Source of the DNA: Paracyclopina nana
Lineage: Eukaryota; Arthropoda; Copepoda; Cyclopoida; Cyclopettidae
DNA: 64,000 bases
Direction of reading: 5' to 3'
NCBI GenBank assembly: GCA_019096065.1
Contig: JAGUCH010000001.1
Coordinates: forward strand, 5,146,001-5,210,000
Shown here: positions 24,201-27,200 of the stretch, piece after piece
Position numbering within the stretch: the first letter of the stretch is position 1
Layout of the letters: each line of letters begins with the position of its first letter
Notes under the pieces: generated by a model
Database searches by the model: none
Told to the model about the DNA's origin: nothing
What the model saw: only the letters and a program-made list of their open reading frames with translations
Made by a program: the position numbers and the translations under genes

Positions 24201-27200
24201 AGTGGCCTTCAAGTCTTGAAGCTTTTCGGGCGAAGAAGCTGGAAAGTTGTTGCGATACATGGACAGGTCGATCCTCAGAGAATTGTGCAACGTGTCCAAC
24301 AACTTGATGAATCGCTCTTTCTGCAATTGACAGCTAATTAGTATTTTGTATTCAGAGGGTATCAAGAGGAATGCCCTACCCCGAAATTTGAGGCTGACAG
24401 GCGATCGGAGGCTGACACATTGGTGGTGGCCGTGGTATGAGCATAAAATGCGTTGATGTTGGCCAACAATGTGCTCATGGCGGCAGGCACTCCAGGACAC
24501 AGGTACTTGGAAGACAGGCAATGAAAGTGCCTGAAAAAAAAGAGGAAAAATGCAGAGACTTGCCATGGGGCCAAAAGCTGGCATATCCTTACGTCATGGC
24601 CTGATAGATGGACTCAACGCCGTATCGGAGAGCAAACTCGTCCACAATTTCTTGCTCTGGCTCACCGAAGTAGACCTTCCAAGCATCCTCTCCTCTGGCC
24701 TCAGGCAGCTTGACGTTGCCCAAATTTTGGTCGCACATATAATGGAATAGGTTCTCATGCAGACACGTATATTGGACATGATACGGGGCAACCTGCAACC
24801 GTTATAAGCAAGACTAAAAAATGCTCATGATGTTCATTAATGGATTCGCAATTACGTTTTCCTCTCCTTTAATTTCGACGCTAATTTGCAGGCGAATGGC
24901 ACCGGACACACTCGACTTGTCCGACCTTTTCTCCAGGTTGTACCAAACGTCCATCTCACCGGACAGCGTCCGGACTTCAATGATGGTTTGGCCCAAAAAG
25001 TCATCGGACTCCCTCGTGAGCTTTTGCCTCAGTTTCGACTTGAGGTCATTGTCTTCGTCCCATACACGCACCTTGATCCTGTCCGAAGAGTTGTGGCACT
25101 CGCTGAGGAAAATAGGAAAAATATCAGCTGCGGCATCGAGCGTGCTTTCTCGAATTCAGCCTTACAAGAAAAACTTTTCATTCCACACTGGGTTGAGCTC
25201 CTTAGGCACCGTTTTCGTTCGCTTCTTCGTTTTTCCTACTTGAACCGTTGTATAGGGATCTGAGGTTCCTGTCTTATCTTTGGCAATCAACCCTTGGGCG
25301 CATATCACTACGAGGAGAAAGTAATTAAAGAGCCGTCTAGCTTTTTCCACGGGAGTCCCTGATAGGTAGGAAAACTTTTTGTCGACTTCGATTTTCAGAT
25401 GACGATGCCGCTGGTGTACCACCAGAAAAGTCTGGTCAAAAAGCTGGGTCCATTGTGAGCGAGATGTTCCCAAGGGACCTTGAGATTGCCTCCACAAAAT
25501 TTTCACAACCAGCGCCAACTTCATAAGACCACACAACGACATGGATAGAAAAATTTCCATATTGAAAAAACGACAATCAATAAAAAAAACACATCGAGAA
25601 AAACATGCAGCATGCTGTAACGTCTAATTAGGCATTGCTTGGCTTGAAAAATAATAAGAGCTTTCAAATAGTGATAAGCACGTCTACTTTCTTTAATGAA
25701 AAAATTTCAAAAAGCAAAAATGCAGCAAAAAATTACTCTATACAGTTGAGATGGCAGTAAAACAAAAAGCATCATCTCTGTCTGGTACAGCTTTTTTCAA
25801 GATAAAAAGAAAGAAAGTGATTTATATGATGGAAAGCAATTTTCGCATGTATAATTCAGTTTACCAATTCGTCTCAGTTCATATTACTATACATATATAA
25901 AAGCTCTGACGTTTAACTTTATCAAGTGACACGCATTATAAAGTATTTTATAAGGTGTGTTGCTCCTCTGTTTGACCAGAGACCATGATATTGTCCAAGA
26001 AGTAAATCCCATGTTAGAAAAAAGGAGAAAAAATGCCGAGTATGGGGATCGAACCCTGATCATCTAGATTAGGAGTCCAACGCTCTACTGACTGAGCTAC
26101 CAATACAGACAGAATAATTAATGTCAGAATTCCTTCTTATTCTTATTCTCAGCTGAGCTAAGCTTAGTAGAACAGTAGAGCCTTTTCAGAGGTACCAGAC
26201 AAAACTTAATCTAACACATCTTTTAGCCCCCAAAAATGCCAAATTCTAAATGCACAATTTTTAATTGATTGATTAACGCTTTCTGTTACTCTTGCACTAC
26301 TGAGGGCCTCTCAACCCTAGCCTTCAAGTAATGGATCAGGTGCTAAGTCAAGATCGCCTGGTCTGGTAACTTCATTAACATTTGAAAATTACTTTCCATC
26401 ATATAAAATCGTATATATATGTAAACAATTTATAAAACAGGCTTACAAAACATCTGAGCTCATTTTGCAAAGTAAAAATCTCGTGGCATTACTTGGCTCT
26501 CGCAAGCTCGAGCCCGCAAAAATGCCACTCGATTTCTACTTTACAAAATTTGCTCAGCTATTTTATTAGCTTGTTTTATAAATTGTTTACATATATAAAT
26601 AGATATTCTTTAGGTGAACTACGTTACCTGTGCAAGCAATTTTGCAAGACCACTTAGATGTTCCGTCAAGGACCACTTGTTCAGCGTGATTGATGTTATC
26701 GTCGTGCTGAACAGTTTCGACTTCAAATATTGCCCTACATTACACATCAAAATGCAACGTGCAAGTTAATCCGATTTTGGAAAAAAGAGTGCTTATCAAA
26801 TTGTAAGCAGTCAATTTCGGGTTATCAAGGCTCTCAAATGGCCAACTCATTGAGCTGACAAATGACGAACAACTGTCACAAAAATCAAACACACGACGGC
26901 TATCATTCATACATTTCATGTTTTGAGATGTTGGCATAACCCTAAATGTGTCATGTGCAAACAACACCGATTAAAAATCCACTGAAGTTGCAAATCAAAC
27001 GCTAACGAGTAGAAGACACTCTCCACAGATTTACGAGTTCCCAGCTAGTCAAACTTTTATAGAAGAATTAGTAGCAGTCATTTGAACCTGTGATGGCAAT
27101 TTTTGCCGACCACTTGCTGATGCCTTGAGATATGGTATAGGTCAATGCCAACATGTTGGTGGAATGGATCTTCACGGGCATTTTGAAGACTTTCCTGAAC

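Follow-up and report, generated by a model that had tools for sequence, protein, structure and literature searches.

Does the unc-13 gene of the copepod Paracyclopina nana harbor two interchangeable versions of one exon just ahead of its C2B domain, of which a mature message carries only one, and what would such a swap do to the protein? The window, by which the whole analyzed stretch of 64,000 nt is meant, contains the gene on its minus strand, as revealed by Pfam domains and by a match to Munc13-1. Pfam places one C1 and one C2 domain in the joined C1-linker-C2B part, three of the four downstream frames submitted match the Pfam MUN domain, with frame 24144-24593 giving no Pfam match among these four, and a second Pfam C2 domain was obtained from frame 21697-22257. 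The domain order C1, C2B, MUN and C2C was thus found, which is that of a neuronal-type Unc-13/Munc13. Compared with rat Munc13-1 (5ue8, PDB), the whole isoforms with exon a and with exon b scored 275.0 and 276.5 bits, respectively, both without gaps, and together with the C1, C2 and MUN domains this bears out the Unc-13/Munc13 assignment of the original prediction. The exons and introns concerned are as follows, in the direction of the gene.

27721..27940, minus strand: exon of the C1 (DAG/phorbol ester) domain; Pfam C1_1, E ~1e-12
27544..27664, minus strand: linker exon upstream of the pair, ending ...ARPEIFELI+R; donor AAG/GTAAGA, the top score of 21
27195..27543, minus strand: intron 1 of the pair, 349 nt; contains one arm of a candidate helix, 27450-27438
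27088..27194, minus strand: exon a, 107 nt, net charge +5; placed by frame and homology
26735..27087, minus strand: intron 2 of the pair, 353 nt; contains the other arm of the candidate helix, 26847-26835
26628..26734, minus strand: exon b, 107 nt, net charge -4; placed by frame and homology
25308..26627, minus strand: intron 3 of the pair, 1320 nt (~535 nt minus the inserted element)
25821..26605, minus strand: dispersed element of ~785 nt, outside the pair proper; near-palindrome 26597-26414, tRNA-like stretch ~26106-26034
25166..25307, minus strand: first C2B exon, containing the loop sequence AKDK; TGA becomes its first codon when a and b are both included
24856..25102, minus strand: second C2B exon

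Exons a and b are preceded by AG and followed by GT, and both are entered in phase 2 and left in phase 1; the first base of each completes an AG/G Arg codon and the last base begins a G/TG Val codon, so the predicted identity of length (exactly 107 nt) and phase is borne out by the coordinates, the exon ends and the shared codon splits. The joined translations likewise agree with what had been claimed of the frame. The upstream exon is followed by an open frame through either a or b into the C2B exon, inclusion of both makes TGA the first codon of the C2B exon (...LAKLLAQ-stop), and the skipping of both shifts the frame and leads to a stop at the 12th codon after the join. Equal length, consensus splice sites, the same phase, the lack of in-frame stops, homology, and a frame broken with both or neither were therefore all observed, and the loss of the full protein by joint inclusion or skipping is diagnostic of mutually exclusive exons, though some of these do without it. 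According to the available text of PMC5740500, the pair is like mutually exclusive tandem exons in general in its length, GT-AG borders, frame, homology and frame break when joint, but those exons were validated by RNA-seq, whereas the present pair is predicted from sequence. At the level of sequence, the pair is confirmed as real. Open stretches of this kind are not rare by themselves, as 57 of the 223 AG...GT stretches of 107 nt on the minus strand are open in that phase, and it is therefore homology, rather than openness, that carries the case.

Over their 35 residues, without gaps, a and b share 12 identities, a and rat Munc13-1 share 15, and b and rat Munc13-1 share 16, and these scores were reached by none of 100,000 shuffles in each of the three comparisons. 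The original prediction described the exons as sharing the end SKWSxKIAxT and differing before it. The shared end was recovered, but the first 25 residues are homologous too, since the BLOSUM62 score of a with b is 16 there, where shuffles average -21.5 and 26 of 100,000 reach it; for a and rat Munc13-1, the same residues gave 3 of 100,000. When exon a alone was compared with 177,635 PDB sequences (E 10), only two Munc13-1 sequences were retrieved (E 0.1 and 0.12). The window contains 1380 open frames of ≥28 codons. When all of them were compared with one another by blastp, 275 pairs on the same strand and without overlap had E ≤1; exons a and b came second (E 3e-5), behind a pair that includes a frame within the mobile element of intron 3. 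A window-wide scan with a profile built from both exons, whose own high scores (108 and 102) are thus expected by construction, found nothing else, the next best of 127,792 positions scoring 18.7. Certain traits of Munc13-1 are retained singly, VLDGT in b and AKIxIT in a, each being lost in the twin. Each exon is nearer to the rat segment than to the other, so neither looks like a late offshoot of its twin, which, over 35 residues, suggests an old duplication but does not date it. The conservation case rests on the two exons and rat Munc13-1; pattern matches in prokaryote genomes (25) and viral contigs (3) included no confirmed relatives and have no bearing on rarity.

The genome searched comprises 92 Mb in 10 contigs, with the window on contig C1 (17.8 Mb). 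The linker-C2B protein with exon b gave 27 matches. Three rows belong to this gene and the other 24 to weaker C2-type places, of which the strongest has an E of 4e-10 and 33% identity. The linker was reached by two weak alignments, at query 11-140 (E 5e-4, 30%) and query 14-67 (E 3), and no second close unc-13 copy was seen in this search. Exon a with its flanks matched only itself at E 10. Because the query with exon b missed exon a, a further diverged copy might be present elsewhere.

The two exons might also represent one working exon and one non-functional relic, with b constitutive and a dead or rarely used, or the reverse. The donor of exon a (CAG/GTTCAA) is the weaker one, scoring below 19 of 21 other donors of the gene, as this reading would have it; yet exon a is free of stops, keeps its length and both splice sites, and matches rat Munc13-1 nearly as well as b does (15 versus 16 of 35). 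Nucleotide identity between a and b is 44/107 overall and 23/76 over the first 76 nt, and different codons are used at six of the 12 residues common to both, including Ser (AGC versus TCT). When exon b was left to decay neutrally to an identity of 44/107, 13% of the copies were open, 0.025% had at least 12 identities, and none had eight of the last ten residues. Not one of 4000 copies combined an open frame with 12 or more identities and with eight or more in the last ten residues, in a simulation in which only one exon decays under a simple base-composition model. Since no neutral copy reproduces the pattern at this divergence, the comparison argues that for a large part of their existence the exons were translated, and the relic reading appears very unlikely.

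Substantial differences in intron length were observed. The introns of the pair measure 349, 353 and 1320 nt, whereas the 20 others between 28241 and 21454 have 53-84 nt, and by chance the top three ranks among 23 introns would fall to these three in 1 of 1771 cases. Two more candidate introns just upstream of the counted range have 69 and 203 nt, and on account of the latter, length alone does not single out the pair. The splice-site matrices were built on 21 donors and 20 acceptors, whose places follow from the reading frame and from Munc13 sequence. The donor of exon b (CAG/GTAACG) is outscored by 16 of the 21 other donors, and against 20 acceptors, those of a, b and the C2B exon score above seven, five and seven, respectively, making acceptor a middling and acceptor b rather weak. 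A GTTCGC donor follows ...DKKDK at another unc-13 intron (23397-23335, minus strand), so a T at position +3 occurs beyond exon a. With ordinary acceptors and a GTTC donor elsewhere in the gene, the splice sites by themselves are no proof of regulation.

The same introns bear on how joining of a and b would be prevented. Steric exclusion was rejected, as the intron between a and b has 353 nt, about six times the length of introns spliced elsewhere in the gene model, and U12 incompatibility was rejected as well, the donors of a and b being without the U12 type by inspection for its motif. A steric or spliceosome-type exclusion is consequently unlikely, and the frame together with NMD is left as the simplest means of enforcement. 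Mutual exclusivity of a and b is strongly suggested, and in all probability the two form a true pair of mutually exclusive exons.

The absence of a steric bar also bears on a reading that overlaps with this one, in which a and b are alternatives but not strictly exclusive, and abundant messages with both or neither exon lead to NMD or a truncated product and so set the dose of Unc-13. Both the a+b and the skipped message would indeed meet early stops, and a 353-nt intron can be spliced, leaving a free to join b; we regard such a dose switch as a real possibility, though clearly the lesser one.

Pairing between the introns had been proposed as a further point for inspection, and a weak candidate was seen for one pair of introns and none for the two others. 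A 13-bp helix would form between introns 1 and 2 (27450-27438 with 26847-26835) and leave exon a in the loop, and dinucleotide shuffles equaled it in 2 of 100 cases; the longest helices between introns 2 and 3 and between introns 1 and 3 were matched by 36 and 45 of 100 shuffles, i.e., nothing was found there. A docking or selector-type RNA stem might thus enforce the alternation instead of frame and NMD, a reading that again overlaps with the main one. The best 60-nt local duplex of introns 1 and 2 (-36.9 kcal/mol, a value that 1 of 20 shuffles attained) and their long-duplex energy (-149 against -123+/-6 kcal/mol, reached by 0 of 60) point the same way. However, the long-duplex energies are physically unrealistic, for which reason the single-helix counts are preferred, the long duplexes of introns 2-3 and 1-3 were matched by 25 and 41 of 60 shuffles, and no competing partner site was seen. 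Because three intron comparisons were made, the 13-bp stem is marginal and only a lead, and enforcement by RNA structure seems unlikely.

The explanation that we propose, and hold to be highly probable, is that an old tandem duplication of one unc-13 exon gave rise to a mutually exclusive pair, with frame and NMD as the main means of enforcement. Through this pair, the end of the linker and the start of C2B would be exchanged, and membrane binding may be tuned. Each mature mRNA would carry either a or b, and messages with both or with neither would run into early stops and be removed by NMD, so that exclusivity would come mainly from the frame. The choice between the exons might be set by their rather weak donors and by trans-acting factors, and the stem between introns 1 and 2, in looping out exon a, may favor exon b.

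In the protein, the final segment of the C1-C2B linker is predicted to be exchanged along with the start of C2B; the exons align to Munc13-1 ~660-694, as placed by the alignment and by the positions of K706 and K720 in the available text of PMC8648301. The original prediction that the swap alters the C1-C2B linker is therefore right as to the linker end and too narrow otherwise, as the last 18 exon residues fall within the solved C2B construct 6nyc. By this overlap, C2B begins within the exon, presumably with its first beta strand. The Ca2+-loop sequence AKDKTGTSD lies in the shared C2B exon and is the same in both forms. Both isoforms align ungapped to the C1-C2B linker of rat Munc13-1 (5ue8, 7t7c), but the solved rat sequence is a single version, with a net charge of +3 over the segment. 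Lysine occurs five times in exon a, which is free of acidic residues (net +5), and exon b combines two lysines with six acidic residues (net -4), a difference of nine units. According to the published texts as far as available, the Munc13 linker consists of four helices contacting H1, MUN, C1 and C2B, and basic residues of C1-C2B govern liposome binding, priming and release probability. With +5 against -4, form a should bind the membrane more strongly; the basic form would give stronger membrane binding and bridging at rest, and the acidic form a looser C1-C2B module and a shifted balance of priming against release probability. We would thus expect form a to favor the Ca2+-independent bound state and form b to loosen it. 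An effect on Ca2+-dependent priming is plausible by analogy with Munc13-1 mutants elsewhere in C1-C2B.

Mutually exclusive exon pairs as a kind of system are well known. Another arthropod gene for presynaptic release control has a mutually exclusive exon too, according to the portion of the source available, but in a different protein and region. In the fly, unc-13 is reported to be differentially spliced in circadian neurons (PMC6025963) and between the sexes (PMC1779584), with the exon unnamed in the accessible text of either, and C1 and C2B are stated, in the portion of text available, to be present in both Unc13A and Unc13B. These are cases of the same gene in an arthropod, but a swapped C1-C2B linker exon is not described in those portions of the reports. 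As the fly event is unnamed, an equivalent pair may already be present in data or annotation. In the literature search, which covered titles, the beginnings of abstracts and partial text of papers, no mutually exclusive unc-13 exon was found described. A broader version, in which the pair is ancient and possibly arthropod-wide and its charge swap gives two membrane affinities that alter priming and release probability with the Ca2+- and DAG-binding residues unchanged, we consider rather doubtful. Unc-13/Munc13 sets the number of ready vesicles and the ease of their fusion, and C1-C2B is where Ca2+ and lipid signals enter; if the proposed swap is true, arthropod neurons could reach different synaptic strengths by alternative splicing of a single gene. 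A natural swap at the C1-C2B joint would also offer a ready comparison for the two-face membrane-binding model, as set out in the available text of PMC8648301.

The element in intron 3 (26605-25821) starts 22 nt past the exon b donor. Over its length, five copies taken from this genome show 97.3 to 99.5% identity, and two part-queries indicate at least ~40 copies in the genome. These copies are far less diverged than the exons, so the insertion is a later event, separate from the pair. Folded as RNA, its first part (26640-26400) gives a hairpin of -102 kcal/mol (z -12.9) that starts ~30 nt past the exon b donor, and so young an element near the donor could affect the use of exon b. Despite the tRNA-like stretch in the element, ARAGORN detected no tRNA in the window. 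The open frames 14605-14937 and 26321-26566, both on the plus strand, are 43% identical over 46 aa (E 6e-8), and as the latter lies inside the element, a diverged relative of it may sit at ~14.6-14.9 kb.

Further features were observed in and around the window. Long open frames on the minus strand (28532-32611 and 35042-37904), located upstream of the C1 exon, contain GxYxDExGxWxE-type repeats, and the Pfam EAGR_box matches a frame of 1360 codons there (E 6e-7). The EAGR_box is known from bacterial proteins; these are perhaps convergent repeats in a candidate N-terminal half of Unc-13. Five-unit TTAGG matches in the genome number 5073 forward and 4205 reverse (controls 0); among the matches listed, all of them on contig C1, they lie near both of its ends, in keeping with an arthropod genome. 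Part of an ALIX/PDCD6IP-like gene was also located on the plus strand of the window at 12059-13354, with Pfam matches to BRO1 (E 5e-24) and ALIX_LYPXL_bnd (E 6e-80).
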